A stretch of 64,000 nt of DNA, taken from the NCBI GenBank assembly GCA_900469625.1, contig UBXV01000027.1, forward strand, positions 62,001 to 126,000, in the 5' to 3' direction. A program made the translations under genes and the position numbers. Source of the stretch: Hyphomicrobiales bacterium (GTDB taxonomy: Bacteria > Pseudomonadota > Alphaproteobacteria > Rhizobiales > Rhizobiaceae). This document shows, piece after piece, positions 24,729-60,655 of this stretch (position 1 is its first letter; the number at the start of each line of letters is the position of its first letter). Under the pieces are notes generated by a model. The model was not told the origin of the DNA. It worked only from the letters and a program-made list of their open reading frames with translations, and did not search any database.

Positions 24729-25727
24729 ATGAAGAAACTCCTCGCTTCCACCATTCTCGCCGCAGGCCTTTATGCCATGGCGGGTTCCGCGCAGGCCGCG
24801 GAATGCGGTGAAGTCAGCATTGCCGAAATGAACTGGGCATCTGCGGGCGTCGCTGCGCATGTGGACAAGTTCATTCTGGAAAACGGTTACGGTTGCACCG
24901 TGACGCTGGTTACCGGCGACACCATGCCGACCTTTGCCTCCATGAACGAAAAGGCTCAGCCGGACATGGCGCCGGAACTCTGGGTCAACGCCGTGCGCAC
25001 GCCGCTCGACGCGGCGATCAAGGAAGGCCGGCTGATCGAGGCCGCCAAGATCTTGAGCGAAGGCGGCGTCGAAGGCTGGTGGATCCCGAAATTCCTCGCC
25101 GATGCCCACCCCGACATCAAGACGGTGCAGGACGCGCTGAAACACCCCGATCTCTTCCCGGCACCGGAAGACCCGTCCAAGGCCGCCGTGCACAATTGCC
25201 CGTCGGGCTGGAACTGCCAGGTTTCGACCGCCAACCTCTACAAGGCGATCGATGCAGAGAAGGCCGGCTTCCAGCTGGTCGACACCGGGTCTGCCGCTGG
25301 CCTCGACGGCTCGATCGCCAATGCCTTTGCCAAGAAGACCGGCTGGCTCGGCTACTACTGGGCACCGACCGCCATCCTCGGCAAATACGAGATGACCCGC
25401 CTCTCCTTCGGCGTCGACCACGACAAGAAGGAATGGGACGCCTGCTCGGCGGTTCCTGATTGCCCGAGCCCGAAGGTCAACTCCTACCCGGTCTCCGACG
25501 TGTTCACGGTCGTGACCAAGTCCTTCGCCGACAAGGCGGGCGTCGCCATGGACTACGTCAAGGCGCGCAAATGGGACAACGGCACGGTCAACAAGGTTCT
25601 CGCCTGGATGGATGAGAACCAGGGCACCAACGAGGATGCGGCCAAGCATTTCCTCGCCGAGTTCCCCGACATGTGGACCACCTGGGTGAGCCCGGAAGTG
25701 GCCGAGAAGGTCAAGGCTGCGCTTTGA
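24729..25727 (+). CDS. Betaine-type ABC transporter substrate-binding protein (OpuAC/ProX family)
   Basis: 332-residue periplasmic protein with a signal peptide (about 1-23, ending SAQAAE). The mature part matches OpuAC-type proteins for quaternary ammonium compounds: an early AEMNWASAGVAAHVDKF, then VTGDTMPTFASM, and a late WDNGTVNKVLAWMDENQGT-like segment. Aromatic residues in GWWIPKFLA and WLGYYWAPTA could form the box that holds a trimethylammonium head. Four to five Cys may form disulfides. It is followed by permease and ATPase genes. Ligand could be glycine betaine, proline betaine, choline or carnitine; the sequence does not decide. Confidence 0.9.
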   Translation: MKKLLASTILAAGLYAMAGSAQAAECGEVSIAEMNWASAGVAAHVDKFILENGYGCTVTLVTGDTMPTFASMNEKAQPDMAPELWVNAVRTPLDAAIKEGRLIEAAKILSEGGVEGWWIPKFLADAHPDIKTVQDALKHPDLFPAPEDPSKAAVHNCPSGWNCQVSTANLYKAIDAEKAGFQLVDTGSAAGLDGSIANAFAKKTGWLGYYWAPTAILGKYEMTRLSFGVDHDKKEWDACSAVPDCPSPKVNSYPVSDVFTVVTKSFADKAGVAMDYVKARKWDNGTVNKVLAWMDENQGTNEDAAKHFLAEFPDMWTTWVSPEVAEKVKAAL

Positions 25728-25734
25728 TGCGATT

Positions 25735-25777
25735 GCCGATGCAGGCGCCCGCGTAAAAAGCGGTCGCCTGCATCGGC
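25735..25777 (+). other. Intercistronic hairpin after the binding-protein gene
   Basis: GCCGATGCAGGCG and CGCCTGCATCGGC form a perfect 13 bp stem, extended by an inner CCGC/GCGG stem around GTAAAAA. It starts eight bases after the stop. There is no T-run, so it probably protects the binding-protein mRNA from 3' decay and gives it higher expression than the permease genes. Confidence 0.7.
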
Positions 25778-26001
25778 GTCTTCGCCGGCAGCCTGGGTAA
25801 CCGGGCACGACGGCGACGCTTCCGACGACGAACGGGCTCGGTTCGCGTCGCATTCAGTAAAGCGGGCGACACGTTCCGCTGTCACATTTCTCACGCCGGG
25901 ACCCGAAGAGGTCACTCGTCAAGTCTGCGCAGGAGATCGGCAACGACCGGTCCGAAGACGCAGTCGGCGTCATAAGACTTCCGGCCAAGAAGGGGAAAAA
26001 T

Positions 26002-26913
26002 ATGGCATCCATCTGCAGTGTCTTGCCAGCGTTGCTCTGCAAGTTCCCTGCCATCGACGACGGAACGATCCGGCTCGCGCGCAAGACCATCGACGATGGC
26101 TTCAAAGGGTTCGTCCGTTCTTATGGCGACGCCATCGATACGGTCGTACAGCCGCTTCAGTGGTTCCTGAATTATCTCGAGGGCGCGTTCGTGGCGTCGC
26201 CCTGGATCCTGGTGCTGATCGTCATGGTCGCCGTGGTCTATTACGGCAGCCGCAACATCAACATCACCATCGGCACGGCGCTGTCGATGATCGCCATCGG
26301 CCTCGTCGGTCTTTGGAACGACACGATGATCACGCTGGCGATGGTGACCGTCTGTACGCTGATCTCGATCCTGATCGGCATTCCGATCGGCATTCTGATG
26401 GCCCGCTCCGACCGGGTACAGTCGATCGTCAATCCGGTGCTCGACGTGATGCAGACGATGCCGAGCTTCGTTTATCTCATCCCCGTGGTCATGATCTTCG
26501 GCATCGGCAAGGTGCCGGGTCTGATCGCCGTCGTCATCTATGCCGTGCCGCCGATGATCCGGCTCACCAATCTCGGCATCCGCCTCGTCGACAAGGAAGT
26601 GCTGGAGGCGGCCGACGCCTTCGGGTCCTCTGCCTGGCAGAAACTGAAGAACGTGCAGATGCCCCTGGCGCTGCCGACCATCATGGCCGGCATCAACCAG
26701 ACCATCATGATGTCGCTGGCCATGGTCGTCGTCGCATCGATGATCGGTGTCGGCGGTCTCGGCAAGAACGTGCTGCAGGCGATCGCCAACCAGTTCTTCA
26801 CTGTCGGCTTCCTCAACGGCTTCGCCCTTGTCGGCATCGCCATCATTTTCGACCGGACCAGCCAGGCCTTCGGCAGGCGGCTGCAGAAGCATTCGGAGGT
26901 TATCCATGGCTAG
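26002..26913 (+). CDS. Betaine-type ABC transporter permease (ProW/OpuAB family)
   Basis: 303-residue inner-membrane permease of the proline/glycine betaine family. About seven hydrophobic segments lie between residues 70 and 290. The EAA loop that contacts the ATPase is EAADAFGSSAWQKLKNVQMP, followed by LPTIMAGINQTIMMSLAMVV. The N-terminal 60 residues are soluble, as in ProW. The ATG follows AAGGGGAAAAAT. Its stop overlaps the ATPase start by eight bases. A 274 bp gap with a hairpin separates it from the binding-protein gene. Confidence 0.92.
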   Translation: MASICSVLPALLCKFPAIDDGTIRLARKTIDDGFKGFVRSYGDAIDTVVQPLQWFLNYLEGAFVASPWILVLIVMVAVVYYGSRNINITIGTALSMIAIGLVGLWNDTMITLAMVTVCTLISILIGIPIGILMARSDRVQSIVNPVLDVMQTMPSFVYLIPVVMIFGIGKVPGLIAVVIYAVPPMIRLTNLGIRLVDKEVLEAADAFGSSAWQKLKNVQMPLALPTIMAGINQTIMMSLAMVVVASMIGVGGLGKNVLQAIANQFFTVGFLNGFALVGIAIIFDRTSQAFGRRLQKHSEVIHG

Positions 26914-27952
26914 TCACGCGATCGAGGTGAAGAACCTCTACAAGATCTTCGGCCCCAATGGCGGCGACTATGTCGATGCGGTCAAGCGGGGCCTTGGCAA
27001 GGCGGAGCTCAACGAGAAACACGGCCACGTGCTCGGCCTGCAGGACATCAACATCTCGATGCCGGCCGGCGGCGTGATGGTGGTGATGGGGCTTTCGGGC
27101 TCTGGCAAGTCGACGTTGATCCGCCACATCAACCGGCTGATCGACCCGACCGCGGGCGAAGTGCTCTATGACGGTGTCGACGTCTGCCAGATGAGCGACA
27201 ACGACCTGCGCGAATTCCGTCGCCACAAGACGGCGATGGTGTTCCAGAAATTCGCGCTTTTGCCGCACCGCACCGTTCTCGACAACACGGTCTACGGCCT
27301 TGAGATCCAGGGCGTCGGCAAGGCCGAGAGCGAAAAGCGGGCGCGCGGCTGGATCGAGCGCGTCGGGCTGAAGGGCTTCGAGAATCATTATCCGAACCAG
27401 CTCTCGGGCGGTATGCAGCAGCGCGTGGGCCTTGCCCGGGCACTGACCAACGACGCCGACATCCTGCTGATGGACGAGGCCTATTCGGCGCTCGATCCGC
27501 TGATCCGTGTCGACATGCAGACCGTGCTTCTCGACCTGCAGAAGGAATTGAAGAAGACCGTCGTCTTCATCACCCACGATCTCGACGAGGCGCTCCGGCT
27601 CGGCGACAAGATCGCCATCCTGCGCGACGGCCGCGTCGTTCAGCAGGGCACGGGCCAGCAGATCGTGCTTTCGCCCGCCGACGACTACATCTCGGCCTTC
27701 GTCAAGGAAGTGAACCGCGGACGCGTCATCAATGTCGAGACGATCATGCGGCCGCTTGCCGGAAACCCGGAAGGCTTGCCGCTGGCGATGGGCACCGTGC
27801 TGGAATCGGCCGCCCGCGCCATGACCGGCGCCCACCTCAACACGGCCCATGTCGTCGACGAGAATGGTCGCCCGATCGGTACGCTCGATCTGCAGACGAT
27901 CATCTCGGCCATGGTGACGCCGACCAGCCATGAGGACAAGAGGGCTGCGTAA
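26906..27952 (+). CDS. Betaine-type ABC transporter ATPase (ProV/OpuAA family)
   Basis: 348-residue ATPase. Walker A is GLSGSGKSTLIRHINRL, the Q-loop lies in AMVFQKFALLPH, the ABC signature is NQLSGGMQQRVGLARAL and Walker B is ILLMDEAYSALDP. The N-terminal extension before Walker A (about 50 residues) is the betaine-importer form. The C-terminal part after residue 260 is shorter than a full pair of CBS domains, so osmotic gating through CBS may be reduced. The ATG overlaps the permease gene by eight bases. Confidence 0.93.
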   Translation: MASHAIEVKNLYKIFGPNGGDYVDAVKRGLGKAELNEKHGHVLGLQDINISMPAGGVMVVMGLSGSGKSTLIRHINRLIDPTAGEVLYDGVDVCQMSDNDLREFRRHKTAMVFQKFALLPHRTVLDNTVYGLEIQGVGKAESEKRARGWIERVGLKGFENHYPNQLSGGMQQRVGLARALTNDADILLMDEAYSALDPLIRVDMQTVLLDLQKELKKTVVFITHDLDEALRLGDKIAILRDGRVVQQGTGQQIVLSPADDYISAFVKEVNRGRVINVETIMRPLAGNPEGLPLAMGTVLESAARAMTGAHLNTAHVVDENGRPIGTLDLQTIISAMVTPTSHEDKRAA

Positions 27953-28077: not shown

Positions 28078-28085
28078 AGCCGTCT

Positions 28086-30771: not shown

Positions 30772-31788
30772 ATGACCCTTGCCGCCAATGTTCTCTCCGA
30801 CCTCATCGCCGAAAAGGGCGTTCTTCTCGCCGATGGCGCCACCGGGACTTCGCTGTTCGCGATGGGTCTGGAAGCGGGCGAAGCGCCTGAGATCTGGAAC
30901 GAGACCAGGCCGGAGAACATCACCAAGCTGCACCAGGACTTCGTCGATGCCGGCGCAGACATCATCCTGACCAATTCCTTCGGCGGCACGCGCCACCGGC
31001 TGAAGCTGCACCACGCCCAGGATCGCGTCTATGCGCTCAACAAGCGCGCAGCCGAAATCGCCCGCGCCGTCGCCGACAAGGCGTCACGCAAGGTCATCAC
31101 CGCCGGTTCCGTCGGTCCGACCGGCGAACTGCTGATCCCGCTCGGCGCGCTGTCCTACGAGGACGCGGTCCTCGCCTTCGTCGAGCAGATGGAAGGCCTG
31201 AAGGCCGGTGGCGCCGAAGTCGCCTGGATCGAGACGATGTCGTCCCCCGACGAGATCCGCGCCGCTGCCGAAGCGGCCGCCAAGGTCGGCCTTCCCTATG
31301 TCTATACCGGTTCCTTCGACACCGCCGGCAAGACGATGATGGGCCTGCACCCCAAGGACATCCACGATGTCGCCAAGGGCCTGGGCGACGGCCCGGTCGC
31401 CGTCGGCGCCAATTGCGGAGTCGGCGCATCCGACATCCTGTCATCGCTGCTCGACATGACCTCGGCAAACCCGCAGGCAACCGTGATCGTCAAGGGCAAT
31501 TGCGGCATTCCCGAATTCCGCGGCTCCGAGATCCATTACTCCGGCACGCCGCCGCTGATGGCGGAATATGCGCGCCTGGCCGCCGATGCCGGCGCGAAGA
31601 TCATCGGCGGCTGCTGCGGCACCACCTGCGGCCACCTCGCCGCCATGCGTGTCGCGCTTGACGAGCATTCGCCGCGCGAGCGCCCGACGCTCGATGTGAT
31701 CATCGAAAGGATCGGCCCGCTGCGCAACAAGACCGCCAACGAAGGCCCGTCGGCGCCTGCCCGCGAGCGCCGAGGCCGCCGGGGCTGA
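30772..31788 (+). CDS. bmt: Bmt, betaine-homocysteine methyltransferase-type enzyme
   Basis: 338-residue zinc-dependent homocysteine S-methyltransferase. The N-terminal motif is LLADGATGTSLFAMGL. The three zinc-ligand cysteines are C215 (GANCGVG) and C281/C282 (GGCCGTTC). It resembles the rhizobial Bmt that uses glycine betaine as methyl donor to remake methionine, but donor choice cannot be read from sequence; a methyl-THF or S-methylmethionine role is possible. The last 15 residues are basic (PARERRGRRG). A palindromic operator precedes it and a terminator follows. Confidence 0.85.
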   Translation: MTLAANVLSDLIAEKGVLLADGATGTSLFAMGLEAGEAPEIWNETRPENITKLHQDFVDAGADIILTNSFGGTRHRLKLHHAQDRVYALNKRAAEIARAVADKASRKVITAGSVGPTGELLIPLGALSYEDAVLAFVEQMEGLKAGGAEVAWIETMSSPDEIRAAAEAAAKVGLPYVYTGSFDTAGKTMMGLHPKDIHDVAKGLGDGPVAVGANCGVGASDILSSLLDMTSANPQATVIVKGNCGIPEFRGSEIHYSGTPPLMAEYARLAADAGAKIIGGCCGTTCGHLAAMRVALDEHSPRERPTLDVIIERIGPLRNKTANEGPSAPARERRGRRG

Positions 31789-37333: not shown

Positions 37334-38083
37334 CTAGCGTGGAAACGTTCCGACGACGGCGATCATCGGCCCCATCGGGAACAGCCGGTCGTGCCGGTTG
37401 ATGTCGGGCGCGTAGAGACTGGAGATCGTGCCGTCGAGAAAGAGCGCATTGGGGCAATCGAGTTCGTCACGAAAGAGCGTGGCGAAGTCGTGAAACCGCA
37501 CCGGCCGTTTCGAGACGGCGAACACCACCTCGCCGGTTTTCGTCACGCCGACGCCGTTTCGGGTCTTCAGGCTGGTGCTGTCGGGCAGGAAGCGCGGATG
37601 CAGCGCGCCGTCGATCACCAGCATCGGGCCGGACTGGGTGGCAAAGCGAGGGGTGATCCCGGCATCGCGATAGGCGTCCGCAGCCATCACGCCGGCCTTG
37701 CCGCCGTCGACATAGAAGACGCCGTTCGGCAGCAGATGGAAATTGCCCCAGCCGGTGTTGGTGTTGAGCGGCGCCTGCTCGCGCCCCTCCTCGACATGCA
37801 GGCCCACCGGCGACAGGTCGTCGTGATACATGCCACCGTTCATGGCAAAGAGCATGTATTCGTCGCGGTGGCGCAGCTCCAGCGACAGCGCCCGGAACGA
37901 GCGGAAGGGAACGCCCGCCTGATCCTTGTTGTAAAGGCGGATGTCATTCTCCGCCGGGTCGACGGTGCAGGCGATGTAGTCCTGCCCGAGATGGCTGACA
38001 TCGCGGCAGGCGCCGAGCGCCGGGCCGGCAAGTCCGGCGGAAAGAACGGCACCAACAAGAAAAGGCTTCGGAAACAGCGGCAT
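37334..38083 (-). CDS. Phosphodiester glycosidase-family protein (DUF2233), exported
   Basis: 249-residue exported protein with a signal peptide (about 1-25, ending GPALGAC). It matches the NAGPA/DUF2233 fold: AMNGGMYHDDLSPVGLHVE, FYVDGGKAGV and FLDGTISSLYAP are its characteristic glycine-rich motifs. Related enzymes cleave sugar phosphodiesters; the substrate here is unknown. The ATG at 38083 is preferred over a GTG nine bases upstream. It lies upstream of the sigma-factor gene on the same strand with a 96 bp gap, so it may or may not share its transcript. Confidence 0.85.
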   Translation of the reverse strand: MPLFPKPFLVGAVLSAGLAGPALGACRDVSHLGQDYIACTVDPAENDIRLYNKDQAGVPFRSFRALSLELRHRDEYMLFAMNGGMYHDDLSPVGLHVEEGREQAPLNTNTGWGNFHLLPNGVFYVDGGKAGVMAADAYRDAGITPRFATQSGPMLVIDGALHPRFLPDSTSLKTRNGVGVTKTGEVVFAVSKRPVRFHDFATLFRDELDCPNALFLDGTISSLYAPDINRHDRLFPMGPMIAVVGTFPR

Positions 38084-38244
38084 GAAAAACACCCAATGGA
38101 ATCAGTCGCCCAGCATCATCCAGATTGCGGCGGTTCTGGCGCAGGCGCGAGGAAAAAGCGGATAGCATGGCGAAGCCTGCCTGCAAGGCCGGCGGCCAGG
38201 CAGGCGGATTATCACCACCGCCGCCAACACCGCTGCGCCGTCAG

Positions 38245-39206: not shown

Positions 39207-39911
39207 TTAGAGGTGCAGGGCGGCCATGTGAAAGTGTAGCTGATCGGGCGGATAGCGAAAGTCCTGACCAATGGGACAGGCATCGCGGGAAAGGCAAGCG
39301 TGTGTAAGGCAGCCGCGCCTGCCCGCCTCCGTCGCGAGATGGCCGCGACAGCGTCCGACATCGAAATGCAGCCGTTCGAGCGCGCCGGCGGGACAGGCGG
39401 AGACACAGGGCTTTTCCACGCAACTGTCGCAAGGGTGCGCGGCCGATCGCGCGCCGCCCTCGGGCAAGGCGCTGTCGAAGGCCAGCGCGCCGCGATAGCC
39501 GTGCCAGAGCCCGAAGCGCGGATGAATGAGGATGCCCAATGGCGAAGGTCTGAGGCCCTCCGCCCGCATCGCCCATTGCTGGAATGGCTGCCAGGGCGGA
39601 TCCGACGGGAAATAGGCCGTGGCTCCATGGGCACGAGCGATCTCGCCGATGACCACCTTTGACCAGTGGTCGAGCGGATCGGCGCCGCCGCGGTCCGGCG
39701 CGCTTTCACGCCAGCGCACGAACGGCTGCCAGAGCGAACCGCCGATATTGCCGATCAACACCACGCCGGCCGCCGGGCGACCGTCTGCCAGAAGCGGCGC
39801 GGCGTCGTCGCGGGCGAAATTCAGTGTTCCGCGCAAAAAAAGTCCGTGCGGCCCAAGAGCCGCACGGACGGTTTCAAGTCGAGTGTCCGCAGATGCGGAA
39901 GGCGCCGTCAT
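39207..39911 (-). CDS. 4Fe-4S ferredoxin-like protein
   Basis: 234-residue soluble protein. The C-terminal third has CDSCVEKPCVSACPAGA (C-x2-C-x4-C-x3-C-P) and later Cys in GCLTHACLSRDACP, enough for one or two [4Fe-4S] clusters. The N-terminal part (about 1-150) looks like the ferredoxin/QueG-related proteins found in rhizobia. It is 107 bp downstream of the MttB-type gene in the same direction, so it could supply electrons to reduce corrinoid, but this is positional inference. A role unrelated to methyl transfer is equally possible. Confidence 0.8.
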   Translation of the reverse strand: MTAPSASADTRLETVRAALGPHGLFLRGTLNFARDDAAPLLADGRPAAGVVLIGNIGGSLWQPFVRWRESAPDRGGADPLDHWSKVVIGEIARAHGATAYFPSDPPWQPFQQWAMRAEGLRPSPLGILIHPRFGLWHGYRGALAFDSALPEGGARSAAHPCDSCVEKPCVSACPAGALERLHFDVGRCRGHLATEAGRRGCLTHACLSRDACPIGQDFRYPPDQLHFHMAALHL

Positions 39912-41593: not shown

Positions 41594-41928
41594 GTACTCA
41601 TTCCTCTCCCGCGCATTTCGATATCCTGCGCCTTCAAGCACCGATTGGCCCTCATGCTACCAAGCCGCAGGGACTGTACGGGTCTCAATGCGCCAACGAG
41701 TGGCGCAACTCGAACACTGCCGACTGCGTCATTGCCGGCCAAAAACCGCATGGCGCGAATATATTGTTTTTGTTAAGAATATATAGGCCCCGAAAGAAGC
41801 GGCTCTCCGTCGCTTTTTGCCATATGCGACGTCGCTTTCGAAAACAGATTTTTACAGGTCGCCCGCTATTGATTGTTGAACGTGCCCGGATTTTTGCCCG
41901 GCCGTGCCAGGAACCGAGGAACCCTACT
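41594..41928. promoter_or_regulatory. Divergent promoter region of methyltransferase and corrinoid protein
   Basis: 335 bp. It contains an AT-rich imperfect inverted repeat (AATATATT...AGAATATAT, 41758-41784) and three TGTCGC-like half-sites: CGTCGC at 41808-41813 and 41830-41835 (22 bp apart) and GGTCGC at 41857-41862. These weakly resemble the sites upstream of the betaine transporter and the GlxA-type regulator. The assignment is tentative. Confidence 0.4.
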
Positions 41929-42897: not shown

Positions 42898-43518
42898 ATG
42901 GAAAATGTATCGCGCACTATAGAACGCACGACGCCGGAAAAAGTTCACGTCATCGGTTGCGGCGCGATCGCGCGCGAAATTCTCGCTGTATGCCAGGCAA
43001 ACCGGCTCGACCATGTCGACCTTAGCTGTCTTCCCGCCATCTGGCACAATACCCCCGACCGGATCACCCCCGGCGTGCGCGAGGCGATCGCCACGGCGCG
43101 CCAGCGGGGTTTCGAGCGCATCTTCGTTGCCTATGCCGATTGCGGAACCGGCGGCCACCTCGACCGGCTGTGCGAAGAGGAAGGTGTCGAGCGCATCCCC
43201 GGCCCGCACTGTTATTCCTTCTTTGCCGGCAACGAGGCCTTTGCCAGCCGCTGGGACGACGATCTCACCGCCTTCTTCCTCACCGACTTTCTCGCCCGCC
43301 AGTTCGAGGCCTTCGTGATCGAGCCTCTTGGCCTGAAACGGCATCCGGAGCTCAGGGACATGTATTTCGGCCACTACCGCAAGCTCGTCTACCTCTCGCA
43401 GCAGGAGGACGAGGCGCTGAAGGCCAAGGCGAAGGAAGCGGCCGATTACCTCGGCCTCGAATACGAATACCGCTTCACCGGCTATGGCGACCTGACGACA
43501 TCGCTCCTGAGCGCCTGA
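42898..43518 (+). CDS. DUF1638 protein
   Basis: 206-residue soluble protein of DUF1638, a family often found beside corrinoid methyltransferase genes. The N-terminal HVIGCGAIAREI looks nucleotide-binding; ADCGTGGHLDRLCEEEGVER and GPHCYSFFAGNE contain conserved Cys. Function unknown; it may assist corrinoid or folate chemistry. The ATG at 42898 is preferred to a TTG at 42877. It follows the corrinoid gene, with the convergent entericidin gene in between. Confidence 0.85.
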   Translation: MENVSRTIERTTPEKVHVIGCGAIAREILAVCQANRLDHVDLSCLPAIWHNTPDRITPGVREAIATARQRGFERIFVAYADCGTGGHLDRLCEEEGVERIPGPHCYSFFAGNEAFASRWDDDLTAFFLTDFLARQFEAFVIEPLGLKRHPELRDMYFGHYRKLVYLSQQEDEALKAKAKEAADYLGLEYEYRFTGYGDLTTSLLSA

Positions 43519-49334: not shown

Positions 49335-50162
49335 GTGAGCAAAGCATCAGGGGCCGGCATGGCGGACGCAGACAAACAGAACAATACCTCGGCCAGGCAA
49401 GCGGGCCGCATCGTCGTGGTGACGGCTGGCGGGGAAAATCCCTGGATCATGATCAATGCGCTCGCCCAGCGCTTCGACGATATCGTCGTTTTCCAGGAAC
49501 AGCCGGAACCGAAGGGGCCCTTCCTGCGCCGCCGGGCGAAAAAACTCGGCTGGCCGAATGCGATCGGGCAGCTGGCAACCATGGTTGCTTCGCGCTTCGG
49601 AAAGCGCTTCACCCGCAAACGGGCGCAAGACATTCTCGCGCTTTACGGCGTCTCAGGCACGCCCGACGCGCGCGTGCCTGTTCGCCAGATCGTATCCGTC
49701 AACGACGAAGCCGCCGTTTCGCAGATCCGGGCCGTCGCCCCGCAGGTCGTCTTCCTCATCAGCTGCCGCATGCTGAAGCCGGCGACGCTGGCGCAGACCC
49801 CCTGCCCGGTCATCAATTTCCATGCCGGCATCAATCCCTTGTATCGCGGCCTGATGGGCGGCTACTGGGCGAGGATCAACGACGACGTCGGCAATTTCGG
49901 CGCAACCGTGCACCTGGTCGATGAAGGCGTCGATACCGGTAGCGTCCTCTACCAATCCCGCCAGGTGCCGGCGCGCGCCGATACGATGCACACCTACCCG
50001 CTGCTGCAGACCGCCGCATCCACCGGCATCGCCATTGCCGCCGTCGAAGATACGCTTAAGGGCCGGCTGCGCCCCGTCGATGTCGCAGGTCCGTCGCAAC
50101 AATGGTATCACCCGCCGATCTGGACCTGGCTCGGCAACGGAATTCGCCGCGGCATCTGGTAG
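49335..50162 (+). CDS. Formyltransferase-domain protein
   Basis: 275-residue protein with the formyl-THF transferase fold (about 95-240). The catalytic pattern is NFHAGINPLYRGLMGGYW (H-x-G-x2-P-x-Y-R-G), preceded by PCPVI, and the later Asp lies in GATVHLVDEGVDTGSV. The N-terminal 90 residues contain a Rossmann-like start (VVVTAGGENPWIMI) and a basic stretch. It should formylate an unknown amine using 10-formyl-THF, not Met-tRNA or GAR by its length. GTG at 49335 is used; an ATG at 49359 is possible. It lies 361 bp upstream of the C1 operon. Confidence 0.85.
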   Translation: MSKASGAGMADADKQNNTSARQAGRIVVVTAGGENPWIMINALAQRFDDIVVFQEQPEPKGPFLRRRAKKLGWPNAIGQLATMVASRFGKRFTRKRAQDILALYGVSGTPDARVPVRQIVSVNDEAAVSQIRAVAPQVVFLISCRMLKPATLAQTPCPVINFHAGINPLYRGLMGGYWARINDDVGNFGATVHLVDEGVDTGSVLYQSRQVPARADTMHTYPLLQTAASTGIAIAAVEDTLKGRLRPVDVAGPSQQWYHPPIWTWLGNGIRRGIW

Positions 50163-50523: not shown

Positions 50524-50826
50524 ATGGCAGATCGCATTATCGTCTACTGGCGCGACATCCCGGCCCAGGTCATCATCAAGAAGGGCCGCACGACCGCCAA
50601 GCGCGAGCTGTCACTGCGCTTCACCGAGGCGATCGACATGTGCGCCATGCGCACCGGCGCTGCCGAAACCGACGATTATCTTGCCGAGTGGCGCAAGGCC
50701 GAGCCTCAGCCGGTCTCCGACGAGCTGGAGGCGGAAGCCGACCGGGCAGCAGCCGAACTCGAGGCCGCCTATGACCGCGAGCGGCTGGTCGCTCTCGTCA
50801 AATCCGGAGGCCGCGACAATGGCTGA
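50524..50826 (+). CDS. Virulence-factor-domain protein (PF13769-like)
   Basis: 100-residue soluble protein matching the small 'virulence factor' family: IIVYWRDIPAQVIIKKGR at the N-terminus and ELSLRFTEAIDMCAMRTG in the middle. The family name is historical; in alphaproteobacteria members lie next to MTHFR_C genes. Its stop overlaps the start of the MetV-like gene by eight bases, so they are coupled. Its role in C1 metabolism is unknown. Confidence 0.82.
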   Translation: MADRIIVYWRDIPAQVIIKKGRTTAKRELSLRFTEAIDMCAMRTGAAETDDYLAEWRKAEPQPVSDELEAEADRAAAELEAAYDRERLVALVKSGGRDNG

Positions 50827-51427
50827 GCCGAAGGCCGCAGCCGCCGCGCAGCCGCCCATCGTCAAGGGCAATGCGGCCCCCGGCGCCAAGGCCGCGACGG
50901 GCGCCTTTACGCCTGCCGGCGTCTCGCCGAGCCGTCGCTCGCGCCACAAATACACGGTCCGCCTCTGGGCCGTGCGCAATTCGCGCTTCCTCGAATGGTT
51001 CTACCACCGCTTCGCCGACCTGTTCCTGCTTCTGCATCCACTGTGGAAGGCGATCGGCTACAGCAGGGTGGAGCGCCCCGTCACCTTCGTCGAGCGTCAC
51101 GTCAAGGGCTTCCTCTTCGACTGTCGCATGTGCGGCCAGTGCGCGCTGTCGTCGACCGGCATGTCCTGCCCGATGAACTGTCCCAAGCAGTTGCGCAACG
51201 GCCCCTGTGGTGGCGTCAGGGCCAATGGCAACTGCGAGGTCGAGCCGGATATGCCCTGCGTCTGGGTTCAGGCGTGGAAAGGCTCGCAGAACATGACGAG
51301 GGGTGACGCGATCTTGAATGTGCAGAAGCCGGTGAACCAGTCGTTGCGCGAAACGTCTTCCTGGCTGCGGGTGACGGCGGAAGCAGCCGCCCGGCGCGAG
51401 GCCCAGGCGAAAGAGAACCAGGCATGA
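50819..51427 (+). CDS. MTHFR_C (MetV-like) Cys-rich protein
   Basis: 202-residue protein. An Ala/Pro-rich N-terminus (1-45) precedes a helical region and a Cys-rich MTHFR_C domain (about 98-165): C102, C105 and C108 in CRMCGQC, then CPMNCPKQLRNGPCGG. The same domain is MetV, the partner of MetF in acetogens such as Moorella, where it carries a metal and helps methylene-THF reductase. Here it directly precedes metF with ATGA overlap. I infer a MetVF complex, possibly running in the methyl-THF oxidising direction. The N-terminal extension is unusual. Confidence 0.88.
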   Translation: MAEPKAAAAAQPPIVKGNAAPGAKAATGAFTPAGVSPSRRSRHKYTVRLWAVRNSRFLEWFYHRFADLFLLLHPLWKAIGYSRVERPVTFVERHVKGFLFDCRMCGQCALSSTGMSCPMNCPKQLRNGPCGGVRANGNCEVEPDMPCVWVQAWKGSQNMTRGDAILNVQKPVNQSLRETSSWLRVTAEAAARREAQAKENQA

Positions 51428-52515
51428 GCCCCGATTACAACCCATACGATCCCGGCGCGCCGCTCGATCCCCTGCCGGGACACTCCTCGCGTGGACGGCT
51501 GGAGCGCGTGCTGCGCCGCGGCGAATTTGCCGTGACCGCCGAGCTCAACCCGCCCGACAGCGCCAATCCGCAGGATGTCTATGAGCGCGCGGCGATCTTC
51601 GACGGCTGGGTCGACGGCATCAACGCGGTCGATGCGTCCGGCGCCAACTGCCACATGTCCTCGGTCGGCATCTGCGCCCTTTTGACCCGCATGGGCTATG
51701 CCCCGATCATGCAGATCGCCTGCCGCGACAAGAACCGCATCGCCATCCAGGGCGACGTGCTCGGCGCTTCCGCCATGGGCGTGCAGAACATCATGTGCCT
51801 GACGGGAGACGGCGTGCAGGCCGGCGACCAGCCGGGCGCCAAGCCCGTTTTCGACCTCGACTGCATGTCGCTGCTCGAAACCGTGCGCATCATGCGCGAC
51901 AACTCGAAATTCCTGTCGGGCCGCAAGCTGACGACGCCGCCGCAGGTGTTTCTCGGCGCCGCCATCAACCCCTTTGCGCCGCCCTACGACTTCCGCCCCT
52001 ATCGCCTCGCCAAGAAGATCGAGGCCGGCGCACAGTTCGTCCAGAGCCAGTACTGCTTCGACGTGCCGATGTTCCGCGAATACATGAAGAAGGTGCGCGA
52101 CCTCGGGCTCGACGAAAAGTGCTTCATCCTCGTCGGCGTCGGACCGATGGCATCGGCCAAGACAGCGCGCTGGATCCGCTCCAACGTGCCCGGCATCCAC
52201 ATTCCCGACAGCATCATCACGCGGCTCGAAGGCGCGCAGGACCAGAAGAAGGAAGGCAAGCAGCTCTGCATCGACATCATCAACGAGGTCAAGGAGATCA
52301 AGGGCGTCTCCGGCGTCCACGTCATGGCCTACCGCCAGGAAGAATATGTCGCAGAGATCGTGCATGAATCCGGCGTCTTGAAGGGCCGCCAGCCCTGGAA
52401 GCGCGAGACGCTGCCGGCCGATGCGCTGGTGGCCGAACGGCTGGAGCACATTCGCGAAGGCAAGGAAGAAAACCAGCAGGAGATGGCGGGCGCTGCAGCC
52501 CACCACCCTCACTGA
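51424..52515 (+). CDS. metF: MetF-type methylenetetrahydrofolate reductase
   Basis: 363-residue TIM-barrel flavoprotein of the MTHFR family, somewhat longer than E. coli MetF (296). The catalytic Glu region is AVTAELNPPDSANPQDV, with GVQNIMCLTGDGVQ and AQFVQSQYCFDVPMF as folate/flavin-binding segments. It interconverts methylene-THF and methyl-THF. It overlaps the MetV-like gene by four bases and is 99 bp upstream of a methyl-THF:corrinoid methyltransferase, so in this operon it probably oxidises methyl-THF derived from demethylation; direction is inferred. Confidence 0.92.
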   Translation: MSPDYNPYDPGAPLDPLPGHSSRGRLERVLRRGEFAVTAELNPPDSANPQDVYERAAIFDGWVDGINAVDASGANCHMSSVGICALLTRMGYAPIMQIACRDKNRIAIQGDVLGASAMGVQNIMCLTGDGVQAGDQPGAKPVFDLDCMSLLETVRIMRDNSKFLSGRKLTTPPQVFLGAAINPFAPPYDFRPYRLAKKIEAGAQFVQSQYCFDVPMFREYMKKVRDLGLDEKCFILVGVGPMASAKTARWIRSNVPGIHIPDSIITRLEGAQDQKKEGKQLCIDIINEVKEIKGVSGVHVMAYRQEEYVAEIVHESGVLKGRQPWKRETLPADALVAERLEHIREGKEENQQEMAGAAAHHPH

Positions 52516-52614: not shown

Positions 52615-53580
52615 ATGACCCGTACCATCGTCGCTTCCGCCACCCGCGAAATCATCATCGGCTTCGACCAGCCCTTTTGCGTCATCGGCGAGCGCATCAA
52701 CCCGACCGGCCGCAAGAAGCTGGCCGCCGAAATGATCGAGGGCAATTTCGACACCGTGATCAAGGATGCGCTGGAACAGGTGGCAGCCGGTGCAACCATG
52801 CTCGACGTCAATGCCGGCGTCACCGCCGTCAACCCGAACGAGACCGAACCGCCGCTGCTCGTCAAGACGCTGGAAATCGTCCAGGGCCTCGTCGACGTGC
52901 CGCTGTCGATCGACAGCTCCGTGTCGGCGGCGATCGAGGCGGCCCTGCGCGTCGCCAAGGGGCGGCCGCTGGTCAACTCGGTGACGGGCGAAGAGGAAAA
53001 GCTCGAGGCGATCCTGCCGCTTTGCAAGAAATACGACGTGCCGGTGGTCGCCATCTCCAACGACGAGACCGGCATTTCGATGGATCCGGATGTGCGCTTT
53101 GCCGTTGCCAAGAAGATTGTCGAGCGCGCCATGGATCACGGCATCAAGCCGCACGACATCGTCGTCGATCCGCTGGTCATGCCGATTGGCGCGCTGGGCG
53201 ACGCTGGCCGCCAGGTGTTTGCGCTGCTGCGCCGTCTGCGCGAGGAGCTGAAGGTCAACACCACCTGCGGCCTTTCCAACATCTCCTTCGGCCTGCCGCA
53301 TCGCCACGGCATCAACGCCGGCTTCATCCCCATGGTCATCGGCGCCGGCATGACGTCGGCGATCATGAACCCCTGCCGCCCGCAGGAAATGGAGGCCGTT
53401 CGCGCCGCCAATGTGCTCAACGGCACCGACGCCAACTGCACCAACTGGATCAGGACGTACCGCGACCACAAGCCGGCAGAAGGCGGCCACGCCGTGGCGG
53501 CAGCAGCAACACCGGCAGCCTCCGGCGGCCGTCGCGGCGGCCGCGCTGGACGCACCGGCGGGGCTGCGGCAAGCGAATAG
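52615..53580 (+). CDS. Methyl-THF:corrinoid methyltransferase (pterin-binding, MtgA/AcsE type)
   Basis: 321-residue pterin-binding TIM barrel. ERINPTGRKKL at the N-terminus, LDVNAG in the middle and TTCGLSNISFGLPHR are the diagnostic motifs of methyl-THF methyltransferases (AcsE, MtgA, MtvA). It should transfer the methyl group between the corrinoid protein and THF. It lacks the homocysteine domain of MetH. The C-terminal 30 residues are Ala/Gly/Arg-rich (GGRRGGRAGRTGG), beyond the fold. The ATG follows AAAGGATCTGAC. Confidence 0.92.
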   Translation: MTRTIVASATREIIIGFDQPFCVIGERINPTGRKKLAAEMIEGNFDTVIKDALEQVAAGATMLDVNAGVTAVNPNETEPPLLVKTLEIVQGLVDVPLSIDSSVSAAIEAALRVAKGRPLVNSVTGEEEKLEAILPLCKKYDVPVVAISNDETGISMDPDVRFAVAKKIVERAMDHGIKPHDIVVDPLVMPIGALGDAGRQVFALLRRLREELKVNTTCGLSNISFGLPHRHGINAGFIPMVIGAGMTSAIMNPCRPQEMEAVRAANVLNGTDANCTNWIRTYRDHKPAEGGHAVAAAATPAASGGRRGGRAGRTGGAAASE

Positions 53581-53974: not shown

Positions 53975-54322
53975 ATGACAACGCGCCGACTTCACCTGGA
54001 CACGTTCACGCTCTTTTTCGAGGCTCCATTCGTGATGGCACTTCGGCTGCACGAGATGCAGATGGCGGCCCTGACCGGCAAGAGCCAGGATTCGACCGAG
54101 ATCACCCGCATGGTTTCGGAGAAGGTCGCGGCCACCGCCGAGAGCGCGATGGCGGTGAACATGGCACTCTGGCGCGCCGCCTTCGACAACACGATGCGGC
54201 TGATGACCGGCGGCAACGCGTCGTTCGGCCTGGGCGGCACGGCGATCGCCGCCGCCGCGCTCAAGCCCTACGGCACACGCGTGCGCGGCAATGCACGGCG
54301 GCTGTCGCGCAAATCGTCGTGA
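53975..54322 (+). CDS. Phasin-like hypothetical protein
   Basis: 115-residue protein with helical content and hydrophobic stretches such as LFFEAPFVMALRLHEMQM and VNMALWRAAFDNTMRLM, resembling phasin-like proteins; the C-terminus is basic (RVRGNARRLSRKSS). The ATG lies 47 bp after the small membrane protein. No firm family. It is inside the C1 operon between the methyl-THF methyltransferase and RACo genes. Confidence 0.6.
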   Translation: MTTRRLHLDTFTLFFEAPFVMALRLHEMQMAALTGKSQDSTEITRMVSEKVAATAESAMAVNMALWRAAFDNTMRLMTGGNASFGLGGTAIAAAALKPYGTRVRGNARRLSRKSS

Positions 54323-54483: not shown

Positions 54484-56556
54484 ATGCGCATCGAAGGCAC
54501 TTCCGAGATCGAGACCAACATGACCGAAGCCGCGCATACGGATCCCCTCGTTCTGTTCATGCCGTCGGGCAAGCGCGGCCGGTTTCCGGTCGGAACCCCG
54601 GTGCTCGATGCCGCCCGCTCGCTCGGCGTCTATGTCGAAAGCGTATGCGGCGGCCGCGCCACCTGCGGACGCTGTCAGATCGAGGTGCAGGAAGGCAACT
54701 TCGCCAAGCACAAGATCGTCTCCTCCAACGATCATATCTCGCCGCTCGGCCCCAAGGAGCAGCGCTACGCCTCCGTGCGCGACCTGCCGGACGGGCGGCG
54801 CCTGTCCTGTTCCGCCCAGATCCTCGGCGATCTCGTCATCGACGTGCCGCAGGACACCGTCATCAACGCGCAGGTGGTGCGCAAGGCTGCCACCGACCGC
54901 GTGATCGAGCGCAACGCCGCCATCCAGCTCTGCTATGTCGAGGTCGACGAGCCCGACATGCACAAGCCGCTCGGCGATCTCGACCGCCTCAAGGTGATGC
55001 TGGAAAAGGACTGGGGCTGGAAGGATCTGCTGATCGCGCCGCACCTGATCCCGCAGGTACAGGGCATCCTGCGCAAGGGCAATTTTGCCGTCACCGCCGC
55101 CATCCACCGCGACATGGATTCATCGCGCCCCTTCATCGTCGGCCTGTGGCCGGGCCTGAAGAACGAGGCCTATGGCATCGCCTGCGACATCGGCTCGACG
55201 ACCATCGCCATGCATCTCGTCTCGCTGCTGTCGGGCCGTATCGTCGGCTCGTCGGGCACCTCGAACCCGCAGATCCGCTTCGGCGAGGATCTGATGAGCC
55301 GCGTTTCCTACGTGATGATGAACCCGGATGGCCGCGAGGCCATGACCAAGGCGGTGCGCGAGGCGGTCAACAGCCTGATCGGCAAGGTCTGCGCCGAAGG
55401 TGAGGTCGACCGCCACGACATTCTCGACATGGTCTTCGTCGGCAACCCGATCATGCACCATCTGTTCCTCGGCATCGACCCGACCGAACTCGGCCAGGCG
55501 CCGTTCGCGCTCGCCGTTTCCGGCGCGCTGCAGTACTGGGCGCACGAGATCGACATCGACGTCAATCGCGGCGCAAGGCTCTACATGCTGCCCTGCATCG
55601 CCGGCCATGTCGGCGCCGATGCCGCCGGCGCCACGCTTTCCGAAGGGCCGTACCGCCAGGACAAGATGATGCTGCTCGTCGATGTCGGCACCAATGCCGA
55701 GATCGTGCTCGGCAACAGGGAGCGTGTCGTCGCCGCCTCCTCGCCGACAGGACCCGCCTTCGAGGGGGCCGAGATCTCCTCGGGCCAGCGCGCAGCACCC
55801 GGCGCCATCGAGCGCGTGCGCATCGACCCCGAAACGCTCGAGCCGCGCTTCCGCGTCATCGGCGTCGACAAGTGGTCCGATGAGGAGGGATTTGCGGAAG
55901 CCGCCGCCTCCGTCGGCGTCACCGGCATCTGCGGCTCGGCGATCATCGAGATCGTCGCCGAGATGTATCTCTCCGGCATCATCTCGCAGGACGGCGTCGT
56001 CGACGGCGCGATGGCGGCAAAAAGCCCGCGCATCATCCCGAACGGCCGCACCTTCTCCTACCTGCTGCACGAGGGCCAGCAGCGCATCACCGTGACGCAG
56101 AACGACATCCGCGCCATCCAGCTCGCGAAAGCCGCCCTTTATGCCGGCATCAAGCTGCTGATGGAAAAGCTCGATATCGACCATGTCGACACCATCCGCT
56201 TTGCCGGCGCCTTCGGCTCCTTCATCGATCCGAAATACGCCATGGTGCTGGGTCTGATCCCGGACTGCGATCTCGAGGAAGTGAAGGCCGTCGGCAATGC
56301 CGCCGGCACCGGCGCGCTGATGGCGCTCCTGAACCGCGGCCACCGCCGCGAGATCGAGCAAACCGTCAGCAAAATCGAGAAGATAGAAACGGCTCTTGAA
56401 TCAAAGTTTCAGGAGCATTTCATCAACGCCATGGCGATGCCAAACAAGGTCGACGCCTTCCCGAAGCTCTCTCAGGTCGTCACCTGGCCAGAACCCAAGG
56501 TGGCAGCGGACGATGGCGAAGGCGGCGGCCGCAGGCGCAGGCGCAGCCGGGAGTAA
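54484..56556 (+). CDS. RACo-like ASKHA corrinoid reactivase (DUF4445)
   Basis: 690-residue protein. An N-terminal [2Fe-2S] ferredoxin domain has C55, C61, C64 and C109. The middle and C-terminal ASKHA/DUF4445 domains include IACDIGSTTIAMHL, VDVGTNAEIVLGN and RFAGAFGSFIDP. RACo proteins use ATP to re-reduce Co(II) corrinoid to Co(I), repairing oxidised methyltransferase systems. The end is Gly/Arg-rich (GEGGGRRRRRSRE). It is the last gene of the C1 operon, about 160 bp after the phasin-like gene. Confidence 0.93.
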   Translation: MRIEGTSEIETNMTEAAHTDPLVLFMPSGKRGRFPVGTPVLDAARSLGVYVESVCGGRATCGRCQIEVQEGNFAKHKIVSSNDHISPLGPKEQRYASVRDLPDGRRLSCSAQILGDLVIDVPQDTVINAQVVRKAATDRVIERNAAIQLCYVEVDEPDMHKPLGDLDRLKVMLEKDWGWKDLLIAPHLIPQVQGILRKGNFAVTAAIHRDMDSSRPFIVGLWPGLKNEAYGIACDIGSTTIAMHLVSLLSGRIVGSSGTSNPQIRFGEDLMSRVSYVMMNPDGREAMTKAVREAVNSLIGKVCAEGEVDRHDILDMVFVGNPIMHHLFLGIDPTELGQAPFALAVSGALQYWAHEIDIDVNRGARLYMLPCIAGHVGADAAGATLSEGPYRQDKMMLLVDVGTNAEIVLGNRERVVAASSPTGPAFEGAEISSGQRAAPGAIERVRIDPETLEPRFRVIGVDKWSDEEGFAEAAASVGVTGICGSAIIEIVAEMYLSGIISQDGVVDGAMAAKSPRIIPNGRTFSYLLHEGQQRITVTQNDIRAIQLAKAALYAGIKLLMEKLDIDHVDTIRFAGAFGSFIDPKYAMVLGLIPDCDLEEVKAVGNAAGTGALMALLNRGHRREIEQTVSKIEKIETALESKFQEHFINAMAMPNKVDAFPKLSQVVTWPEPKVAADDGEGGGRRRRRSRE

Positions 56557-57467: not shown

Positions 57468-57523
57468 GCCACCCCCATGGCGAAGGTCAGCGGTTCACGC
57501 AGGGACCGCGACCTGACGTTCGG

Positions 57524-58447: not shown

Positions 58448-58484
58448 GGCGGCATCCTCGATCAATAAAACTGAAAGAAAGGTT

Positions 58485-58510: not shown

Positions 58511-58561
58511 AGCAAAGACCGATAGTCAAGCTGCAAGGACGCCAAAGGAAGGAAACCAGTC

Positions 58562-58882: not shown

Positions 58883-58909
58883 TGAAAAACATCAAACATA
58901 TTCGTTTGA
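58877..58909. promoter_or_regulatory. GTTTGA/TCAAAC repeat cluster (LysR box)
   Basis: GTTTGATG-AAAAA-CATCAAAC forms a perfect 8 bp stem (58877-58897), and TCAAAC-N6-GTTTGA forms an inverted repeat (58892-58909). It lies 71 bp before the DUF1127 start codon. The TTCGTTTGA core matches the site beside the LysR gene. Confidence 0.55.
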
Positions 58910-58979
58910 ATGATGATTAGGGTTGCGACATATTCACATCGTGGTCGCGACCTCTGAGGCACTCAGAAGGAGCCATGAA

Positions 58980-59183
58980 ATGTCTACCATCCATTTTTCC
59001 CAGACCTCGGAGCGGGCAACCTCCCACTCGTCCATCCCGGGTCTCTTCAATCTTCGTGCACGCGCCTGGGCTGCCTGGAAGCGCTTTGCCAACGAGCGTG
59101 CCCTTGAGAACCTGTCCTACGACACGTTGAAGGACATCGGCTTTCCCTCGGTCGACGATGCGGTGCACAAGACCGAACAATGA
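58980..59183 (+). CDS. DUF1127 (YjiS-like) small protein
   Basis: 67-residue protein. The C-terminal DUF1127 core is ERALENLSYDTLKDIGFPSVDD, split by a helix; the basic, Trp-rich middle (ARAWAAWKRFANERAL) is typical. DUF1127 proteins are small RNA-binding or phosphate/stress-related regulators in rhizobia and Agrobacterium. The ATG at 58980 follows AAGGAG. A LysR-type box lies just upstream. Confidence 0.88.
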   Translation: MSTIHFSQTSERATSHSSIPGLFNLRARAWAAWKRFANERALENLSYDTLKDIGFPSVDDAVHKTEQ

Positions 59184-59650
59184 ATGACCGCGTAACCTGT
59201 TTTCGGGGACCCAAGACCCCGAGACCGAACCGCTGAAGGGCATCGTCGACAAGACGGTGCCCTTCCTGCTTTCGGGCCTGCTTTCTCGCTTTCGTTGGCG
59301 CTTTTCGCCCCTTCGCGGCGCTTGCCCGCCCATCGTGCCAACTTGTCCGATACCGACACCCGGCGCCCTCACCGTTCCCGCGTCGCTTTCGGCAAACACA
59401 ACCCAGGGACGTTATTTCCGAAAATTGCGCATCCCTGGCGTTTCTTGTCAGATTGCGTCAGTTGCCGCGGCAAATCTGTCGCATTCCTTACAAAGACCCC
59501 CAGGCCGGCCAAGCGGTGGCTTTCAGGCCCAATGTCGCAATGCGAAATCTCTTTGCGGTCGCGGGTTTCCATGTCAGTGTCGCAAACAGACAAGCTGCAC
59601 GGTATCTTCCAAGCGACGAATATACGGCATCGCCAAGCATGGGAAGCCTC
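59184..59650 (+). promoter_or_regulatory. Promoter region of the GlxA-type regulator with TGTCGC half-sites
   Basis: 467 bp. Near the gene lie TGTCGC (59533-59538), GGTCGC (59557-59562) and TGTCGC-N8-AA (59578-59593); the last two are 21 bp apart, two helical turns, in direct orientation. This is the arrangement expected for autoregulation by a GlxA/ArgR/GbdR-type activator. The left part of the gap shows no recognised gene. Confidence 0.5.
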
Positions 59651-60655
59651 ATGAACAAGCCCTTGACCAAAAAGCGTTCCATCGTCTTCTTCCTGGTTCC
59701 GAATTTTTCCATGCTGCCATTTTCGGCTGCCATCGAAACGCTCCGCATCGCCAACCGCATGCTCGGTTACGAGGCCTATACCTGGCGCCTCACTTCGACC
59801 GACGGCGAGAAGGTTCTCTCTTCGAGCGGCATCGGCCTCGAGGTCAACTCGTCTCTTGCCGACGAACGCAAGTTCCTGGGCGGCGAAAACCGCCCGTCGA
59901 TGGTGCTGGTCTGTTCCGGCATCTATGTCGAGGATTTCAACAACAAGTCGGTCAATGCCTGGCTTCGCGAAGTCTACAATCGCGGCGTCGCCGTCGGCAG
60001 CCTCTGTACGGGCGCCCATGTGCTGGCCTCTGCCGGCCTGCTGACGGGCAAGCGCTGCGCCATCCACTGGGAAAACCTGCCGGGCTTCTCCGAAAACTTC
60101 CCGCAGGTCGACGTCTATGCCGACCTCTACGAGATCGACAGCAACATCTACACCTGCGCCGGCGGCACCGCCTCGCTCGACATGATGCTGAACCTGATCG
60201 ACCAGGATTTCGGCGAGAACCTCGTCAACCGCGTCTGCGAACAGGCGCTGACCGACCGCGTGCGCGGCCCCCACGATCGCCAGCGCCTGCCGCTGCGTGC
60301 CCGCCTCGGCGTCCAGAACGCCAAGGTACTGTCGATCATCGAGCTGATGGAGGGCAACCTGGCCGAGCCGCTGTCACTTCTGGAGATCGCCGAAGGCGCC
60401 GATCTTTCGCGCCGGCAGATCGAGCGGCTGTTCCGCCAGGAAATGGGCCGCTCCCCCGCCCGCTATTACCTGGAGATCCGGCTCGACCGGGCTCGCCACC
60501 TGCTGATCCAGTCGTCGATGCCGGTCGTCGAAGTGGCGGTCGCCTGCGGCTTCGTCTCCGCCTCGCACTTCTCCAAGTGTTATCGCGAACTCTACAACCG
60601 CTCGCCGCAGCAGGAGCGCGCCGACCGCAAGCTGACGCTGCAGATGGCGCGGTAA
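59651..60655 (+). CDS. GlxA-family transcriptional regulator (DJ-1/PfpI + AraC; GbdR-like)
   Basis: 334-residue regulator. The N-terminal DJ-1/PfpI-like domain (about 10-180) contains the elbow VGSLCTGAHVLASAGLL; the C-terminal AraC domain (about 220-320) contains LLEIAEGADLSRRQIERLFRQ and ACGFVSASHFSKCYRELYNRSP, split by a loop. GbdR, CdhR and ArgR, which control betaine, carnitine and arginine catabolism, have this architecture. The ATG at 59651 follows GGGAAG. It is a good candidate regulator of the betaine/C1 genes; this is inferred from family and context. Confidence 0.9.
   Translation: MNKPLTKKRSIVFFLVPNFSMLPFSAAIETLRIANRMLGYEAYTWRLTSTDGEKVLSSSGIGLEVNSSLADERKFLGGENRPSMVLVCSGIYVEDFNNKSVNAWLREVYNRGVAVGSLCTGAHVLASAGLLTGKRCAIHWENLPGFSENFPQVDVYADLYEIDSNIYTCAGGTASLDMMLNLIDQDFGENLVNRVCEQALTDRVRGPHDRQRLPLRARLGVQNAKVLSIIELMEGNLAEPLSLLEIAEGADLSRRQIERLFRQEMGRSPARYYLEIRLDRARHLLIQSSMPVVEVAVACGFVSASHFSKCYRELYNRSPQQERADRKLTLQMAR

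Follow-up and report, generated by a model that had tools for sequence, protein, structure and literature searches.

The 64-kb window (the whole stretch of rhizobial DNA analysed here, from contig UBXV01000027.1) carries a gene block that we read, with a probability of about 0.8, as the version of the aerobic MtgBCD(E) corrinoid/tetrahydrofolate (THF) methyl-transfer system found in Rhizobiaceae, with a protein named CblFeS in this study as its helper. The core of the system is already published, and the window represents another Sinorhizobium/Ensifer-like genome that carries it; new here are the gene cblFeS and its pairing with mttB, which encodes a non-pyrrolysine quaternary-amine:corrinoid methyltransferase. 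The product of cblFeS (39207-39911, minus strand; 234 residues) is described from predicted fold, conservation, and synteny as an MMACHC/CblC-like domain joined to an eight-cysteine domain, and the gene follows mttB immediately, in the same orientation. CblFeS is read as a putative B12-handling protein that was recruited in this system to keep the corrinoid protein MtgC active in air.

Pairing of cblFeS With mttB

The pairing was examined in 80 related CblFeS loci, the best 80 of 543 confirmed, a sample that leans to Rhizobiaceae and in which the closest named match is Ensifer adhaerens SD006 (85% identity). In 78 of the 80, mttB (at least half of its length) lies upstream of cblFeS on the same strand, and the other two have a partial match near a contig end; the distance between the two genes is 92–337 bp over the 80 loci. 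The window genome itself (6.54 Mb, 74 contigs, 99.75% complete) is that of a Sinorhizobium/Ensifer relative, and its family, judged from named relatives, is Rhizobiaceae. In 22 other genomes of this family, drawn from a sample of 397 across the phylum, cblFeS and MTTB matches agree throughout: all 14 genomes with cblFeS have MTTB and all eight without it lack MTTB (Fisher 3.1e-6, shared descent ignored), two same-family genomes with partial CblFeS matches at E ~1e-4 (G246, G577) being scored as without CblFeS. In 13 of the 14 pairs the two matches share a strand and are separated by 110–175 bp; in the remaining pair the separation is 1571 bp. A single genus (g181) contains both states, with the two genes present together or absent together. 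Of 28 further genomes of the same order, 26 have neither gene, one has MTTB alone, and one has both at a distance of 36 kb.

Outside the order the association is looser, as followed in a class sample of 212 genomes, which includes the window genome, and in the phylum sample, 80 genomes of which were checked for MTTB. CblFeS matched 50 of the 212 class genomes, and four partial matches with E above 1e-7 (G034, G036, G048, G141) were dropped to leave 46 carriers, of which 33 have MTTB. Six of the 45 class neighbourhoods that were fetched adjoin mtg genes; they come from four genera (G100/G188 and G029/G139 being pairs), with cblFeS within 300 bp of mtgC or mtgD in G107, G073, G100, and G188, and within 2.5 kb of mttB in G029 and G139. 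In f20, one of four other sampled families discussed here (with f147, f151, and f153), 19 of 20 checked cblFeS carriers have MTTB, and cblFeS was not beside mttB in any of the 10 loci examined. A more distant homolog (32% identical) is found on a plasmid of Methylibium petroleiphilum PM1 (L152), at the end of a run of cobalamin biosynthesis genes comprising cobO, cbiB, an aminotransferase, cobyric acid synthase, cobT, cobS, a histidine phosphatase, and a 2'-5' RNA ligase. This distribution fits a general B12-handling role that is tied to MttB by Rhizobiaceae.

Three narrower ideas about context were rejected. CblFeS is not a factor for MttB only, as it occurs in genomes without MttB. Nor is there a broadly conserved cblFeS neighbour outside Rhizobiaceae, the largest neighbour cluster covering six of 45 loci, a count that excludes cblFeS itself and a 19-locus opposite-strand cluster read as a shadow open reading frame (ORF) of cblFeS. 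The f20 context was set aside as functional evidence: the neighbours kept in 9–10 of the 10 loci read, from one representative each, as YidC, a GTPase, an amino-acid kinase, a histidine phosphatase, and parts of an ATP-binding cassette (ABC) transporter. In the window, a gene of the phosphodiester glycosidase family (37334-38092, minus strand) lies near cblFeS, as in 66 of the 80 related loci, and has no evident connection to it.

Sequence and Predicted Fold of CblFeS

CblFeS has no Pfam match at E 0.001. In a relaxed search its top family is MMACHC (PF16690; E 0.21, 11.6 bits vs. a 27-bit gathering score), which is also the commonest Pfam match within the CblFeS family (17 of 27 members at E<=1). 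MMACHC is a human B12-processing protein, the loss of which causes cblC disease. An MMACHC/CblC-like fold is tentatively predicted for CblFeS from its best AlphaFold model (predicted local distance difference test, pLDDT, 84.3; predicted template-modelling score 0.78): human MMACHC chains fill ranks 1–13 in Foldseek (E 1.8e-4 to 1.5e-3, probability 1.00, template-modelling (TM) scores 0.44-0.54), followed by the reductive dehalogenase PceA, C. elegans CblC, and QueG. Besides the predicted fold, CblFeS has in common with MMACHC/CblC of human and C. elegans a short stretch, H-P-x-x-G-x-W-x-x-x-R-G; it differs from them in its additional C-terminal eight-cysteine domain and in scoring below the Pfam cut-off. 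The order of parts, a predicted cobalamin-binding fold and then iron-sulfur motifs, is that of QueG and the reductive dehalogenases, although CblFeS has 234 residues vs. 437 in QueG (5d08). Against the PDB, the family profile placed QueG first (0.01), with a MaoC-type protein and several of the iron-sulfur kind ahead of MMACHC (0.13); for the N-terminal part alone the top matches were MaoC-type (0.024, 0.084), followed by six MMACHC sequences (0.11-0.23) in an alignment of 21 residues on the H-P-x-x-G-x-W-x-x-x-R-G stretch; and the single sequence returned mostly Keap1 in its top rows, at E 0.18 and weaker.

In 153 aligned members, the cysteines at positions 161, 164, 169, 173, 188, 201, 206, and 212 are nearly invariant, as is R140. 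The near-invariance applies to aligned positions; a pattern with strict spacing of the eight cysteines is found in 78 of 80 Rhizobiaceae-type, 40 of 45 class, 4 of 10 f20, and 0 of 11 f153 loci. From their sequence, the eight cysteines would fit two [4Fe-4S] clusters. With such clusters, CblFeS might be no more than a ferredoxin-like protein passing electrons to RACo or to MetV/MetF2, its CblC-like fold being a relic that binds no cobalamin. The near-invariant cysteines, a sub-threshold NapG-type match, the annotation 'ferredoxin' given to the counterpart in Sinorhizobium meliloti Ak57, and the need of RACo's own Fer2 domain for an electron donor all speak for such a donor. We nevertheless consider it unlikely: H130, G134, W136, and R140 in the CblC-like half, at positions common to MMACHC, are invariant in 27 members, and the distant Methylibium homolog follows a run of cobalamin genes. 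The specific alternative, that an alphaproteobacterial CblC-type protein with two [4Fe-4S] clusters of its own loads or re-reduces the corrinoid protein of betaine demethylation and is an obligate partner of MttB in Rhizobiaceae, is put forward tentatively, at somewhat short of an even chance.

Proposed Methyl-Transfer Pathway

In the proposed system, betaine would be imported by an ABC importer consisting of an OpuAC/ProX-type betaine-binding protein (24729-25727, plus strand; PF04069, E 2.1e-56), a permease (26032-26913, plus; PF00528), and an ATPase (26906-27952, plus; PF00005), the substrate being the presumed one. MttB/MtgB (40019-41593, minus; PF06253, 771 bits) would transfer one methyl of the betaine to the cob(I)alamin carried by MtgC (41929-42627, plus; PF02310 and PF02607), and the methyl-THF:corrinoid methyltransferase MtgD (52615-53580, plus; PF00809; NCBIfam PRK07535, 398.6 bits) would hand this methyl to THF. 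The methylene-THF reductase MetF2 (51424-52515, plus; PF02219) is then thought to run as a methyl-THF oxidase, forming methylene-THF together with the DUF5981 protein MetV (about 50819-51427, plus; PF12225 on an ORF from 50276). Alternatively, as a side branch, MtgE, a homocysteine S-methyltransferase module (30772-31788, plus; PF02574, E 2.6e-62), would draw on methyl-MtgC for methionine. Cobalt oxidised by air would be returned to Co(I) by a RACo/RamA-like ATP-dependent corrinoid reactivase (54484-56556, plus; PF14574, PF17651, PF17650, and PF00111) with the DUF1638 protein, a candidate reactivation factor (about 42898-43518, plus; PF07796 on an ORF from 42877, the start being taken from the length of the S. 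meliloti coding sequence, CDS). CblFeS, with its two predicted [4Fe-4S] clusters, would probably bind the corrinoid base-off and supply electrons, and might thereby load or repair the MtgC cofactor; each of these CblFeS steps is conjectural. A GbdR/GlxA-type regulator with DJ-1 and AraC domains is encoded at 59639-60655 (plus; PF01965 and PF12833 on a longer ORF from 59453).

The same set of parts has been described in Ruegeria pomeroyi, where MtgB, MtgC, MtgD, MtgE, MetF2, RamA, and DUF1638 are reported (PMC12478193, PNAS 2025; here and below, cited statements refer to the available text of each source). The mtgC and mtgD mutants of R. pomeroyi do not grow on glycine betaine and are methionine auxotrophs, and proteomics supports its MttB-type MtgB, MetF2, RamA/RACo, and DUF1638 (PMC12478193). 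According to the same source, the S. meliloti mtg genes are colocalised, their locus is grouped with those of Ruegeria and Phaeobacter, and the roseobacter MtgC forms a distinct clade. The window resembles these R. pomeroyi and S. meliloti systems in having an MttB-type enzyme, a standalone corrinoid protein, a pterin methyltransferase, and a homocysteine module as separate genes, with RACo/RamA, DUF1638, and a MetF-type protein accompanying mtgD; it differs from R. pomeroyi in that its genes are clustered and its genome keeps MetH (PMC12478193). The earlier note on this DNA, made from the letters alone, had proposed the order MttB, corrinoid protein, methyl-THF, with RACo in an aerobe; this logic agrees with the published MtgBCD system, S. 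meliloti included, and is not new (PMC12478193). Its comparison with the anaerobic glycine-betaine pathway stands for the chemistry and the modules, which are those of MtgB/MtgC/MtgA in Desulfitobacterium hafniense (per PMC12478193), but the S. meliloti locus is a nearer counterpart than the Desulfitobacterium set, and than any other system compared. The window block lies in a rhizobial genome, and its MtgC reaches neither of the NCBIfam cut-offs for MtgC (212.6 bits vs. the 370-bit cut-off of MtgC_2).

These genes could also be mainly a split cobalamin-dependent methionine synthase (MtgC, MtgD, and MtgE, with RACo and DUF1638), to which MttB is a minor addition. Phaeobacter inhibens uses the same three synthase modules for methionine, and its RamA-like (DUF4445) and DUF1638 proteins are required for the split enzyme (PMC5764234); MtgE, moreover, sits in the window block. 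P. inhibens lacks metH and relies on the split system as its methionine synthase (PMC5764234), whereas the window genome encodes MetH at full length, activation domain included, and could therefore make methionine independently of the split system. Furthermore, 78 of the 80 related loci contain mttB, often along with the importer, metV, and metF2, a content that points to catabolism; we regard a system mainly for methionine as very unlikely. The presence of MetH departs from the reported tendency for metH to be absent where MtgBCD(E) occurs, a tendency that is not a requirement and has exceptions in Hyphomicrobiales (PMC12478193); S. meliloti also has MetH (PMC5764234). Of the two PF02607 (B12-binding_2) matches in the window genome one lies within MetH, and MtgC is therefore the only standalone PF02607 protein found there; similarly, one of the three PF02574 matches lies inside MetH. 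RACo and DUF5981 (MetV) each have a single match in the genome.

MTTB has three matches in the window genome. The mttB frame of the window contains no in-frame stop, and the claim in the earlier note that its product is a non-pyrrolysine enzyme is borne out: a pyrrolysine MttB of the trimethylamine type is ruled out by the lack of an in-frame TAG and by a TIGR02369 score of 286.3 bits vs. a cut-off of 525. The second MttB (G000:C50:69628-71121; L198:8611-10248) is 53% identical to that of the window and adjoins a gene for a 689-residue Oxidored_FMN/Pyr_redox enzyme, presumably akin to dimethylglycine or N-methylproline demethylases, which suggests a second betaine route sharing MtgC. The third (on contig C46) is 42% identical and lies near a DAO oxidoreductase. 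Both further enzymes probably feed the same MtgC as the window MttB, so that one MtgC would serve all three.

With three paralogs of such differing company, and an importer family that is betaine-generic, the system might be correctly identified while the main substrate of the window MttB is another quaternary amine (e.g., proline betaine), glycine betaine being handled elsewhere. The accompanying MtgC/MtgD and GbdR/GlxA-type regulator argue against this. The best PDB match of the window MttB is 4yyc_A (1122.5 bits, full length); the five solved sequences that it matches include 9yce (413.9 bits), which bears the name glycine betaine methyltransferase, yet 4yyc and 2qne (416.4 bits), to which no substrate is assigned, score higher. 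On balance we find a different main substrate distinctly unlikely, and keep to the aerobic betaine-demethylating MtgBCD(E) system with CblFeS as helper.

Several observations count against that assignment or its CblFeS component. The substrate of the window MttB is assigned by inference, the three MttB proteins could differ in substrate, the R. pomeroyi MtgB is itself backed by proteomics rather than by a knockout (PMC12478193), and with MetH present the methionine branch of MtgBCDE may be idle. In the class sample, 13 of the 46 CblFeS carriers have no MTTB and 12 of the 45 MTTB genomes have no CblFeS, and none of the nine carriers checked in f147, f151, and f153 has MTTB. The best NCBIfam match of CblFeS is a NapG-type ferredoxin (29.4 bits vs. 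a cut-off of 269; residues 158-212), and the sequence match to MMACHC falls under every cut-off, the best of the 27 family members reaching E 0.0076. Mean pLDDT spans 68.3-84.3 over the five CblFeS models. The 13 top Foldseek chains are one protein, with six hits at E<=0.001, TM scores no higher than 0.54, and root-mean-square deviations of 4.4-8.8, and the matched fold is shared by QueG and reductive dehalogenases. H130 is kept in all 80 Rhizobiaceae-type, all 45 class, and all 10 f20 loci and is N in all 11 f153 loci, and W136 is kept in only 1 of 10 f20 loci.

Gene Content of the Window

Genes were called by a codon-model gene scan together with Pfam scans, some of which were run on longer ORFs; starts were then fixed by the codon model and S. 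meliloti CDS lengths. All parts named in the earlier note, from the betaine-type importer to the GbdR-like regulator, were recovered at or near the places it gave, each with an open frame and a Pfam match over the cut-off, and a degraded cluster is ruled out by frames that are both open and conserved. Its 'Bmt' is indeed a PF02574 methyltransferase, and the best label from NCBIfam is PRK07534, 'betaine--homocysteine S-methyltransferase' (569.8 bits), but we read it as the MtgE homocysteine module: the S. meliloti Bmt is MtgE, a module of a split methionine synthase without the betaine-binding residues of true betaine--homocysteine methyltransferases (PMC12478193). Three genes were missing from that account, namely cblFeS and two ORFs on the plus strand. 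The first of these ORFs (50524-50826) encodes a small PF13769 ('Virulence_fact') protein (E 7.4e-27) and overlaps the start of metV; a 'virulence factor' CDS is annotated at the same position in S. meliloti Ak57. The second (53975-54322), between mtgD and RACo, has no Pfam match and was found in 20 of the 80 related loci, within limited flanks. A search of PDB sequences with MetV gave no matches. The predicted model of the DUF1638 protein (pLDDT 91.9) gave no fold match at E<=0.001, the best being E 1.4e-3.

A formyltransferase-like gene (49359-50162, plus; PF00551 on an ORF from 49335) is present in 45 of the 80 related loci, and its product could process formyl-THF downstream of MetF2. As the earlier note had observed, cobalamin genes lie close by: to the left of the block are CobN, CobW, CobU, two CbiA/GATase_3 proteins, CobD/CbiB, CobA/CobO, and a tetrapyrrole methylase, with a cobalamin riboswitch (21786-22000, minus; 31.9 bits vs. 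a gathering score of 31.5) upstream of the CobU-CobW-CobN run.

Recurrence and Compactness of the Block

Within 8-kb flanks of the 80 related loci, and requiring at least half of the query to be matched, mttB was found in 78, mtgC in 75, DUF1638 in 75, metV in 56, mtgE in 55, metF2 in 52, mtgD in 51, and RACo in 10; genes farther out are missed by these counts. Chance assembly is ruled out by recurrence of the block in S. meliloti, in Paracoccus aminovorans, and in these related contigs. In S. meliloti Ak57 the gene order is the same as in the window and RACo to the importer ATPase spans ~22 kb; P. aminovorans, from another order, has the same divergent core and a GlxA-type regulator. The description 'dispersed' in the earlier note holds locally, within the window, but not elsewhere: in Rhizobium sp. 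LC145 (L143) and Neorhizobium xiangyangii (L149), RACo, mtgD, metF2, metV, DUF1638, mtgC, mttB, cblFeS, mtgE, the ATPase, and OpuAC lie within ~12 kb. The block may have been spread out by insertion in the lineage of the window. In four loci that are about equally compact (L138-L140 and L147), metV and metF2 were not found within the stretch covered. A 3.7-Mb S. meliloti record labelled pSymB (CP090106.1; L150) also holds the block and, judging from its size and content, looks like a mislabelled chromosome.

In the class sample, 45 genomes have MTTB, 41 have DUF1638, and 49 have RACo. RACo accompanies DUF1638 in every one of the latter's 41 genomes, and of the 45 MTTB genomes 40 have DUF1638 and 44 have RACo, the same pattern as the nearly identical presence of RamA-like and DUF1638 proteins reported across alphaproteobacteria (PMC5764234). 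The available text of that source makes no specific proposal for the role of DUF1638.

Putative Regulatory Motif

The divergent promoter region between mttB and mtgC (window 41594-41928) contains a conserved motif, CGTCGCTTTCGAAAA, which from its sequence is a possible regulator site. At <=3 mismatches the motif has eight matches in the window, one of them its source, vs. a mean of 2.92 in shuffled sequence, and 1 of 100 shuffles reached eight. One copy, with two mismatches, lies at 59381, upstream of gbdR. A scan of regulator sites for a GlxA-type palindrome gave 14 matches vs. a mean of 11.2, which is not above chance.

Relation to Published Work and Implications

CblFeS was not described in the literature searched, a weak negative given that most subscription journals lay outside the search; a search by presumed locus tags of the S. 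meliloti mttB region found nothing. The main text of PMC12478193 has no mention of ferredoxin, iron-sulfur, or MetV, and its figures and supplements, which were outside this coverage, may show cblFeS unlabelled. In the parts available, bacteria are said to have no CblC homologs (PMC5070874), TonB is named as the bacterial analogue of CblC/D (PMC8085122), and two further sources name no bacterial CblC-type protein (PMC3603451, PMC4705923).

Chemistry best known from anaerobes thus runs in aerobic plant-associated bacteria, a core point that is already published. It raises the question of how a corrinoid protein in the Co(I) state withstands air, and the conserved, mttB-linked CblFeS makes this question directly testable. 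If the proposed role is true, CblFeS would be a bacterial counterpart of human MMACHC, contrary to the statement in the available text of PMC5070874, and would form a third, ATP-independent arm of cofactor repair beside RACo and DUF1638.

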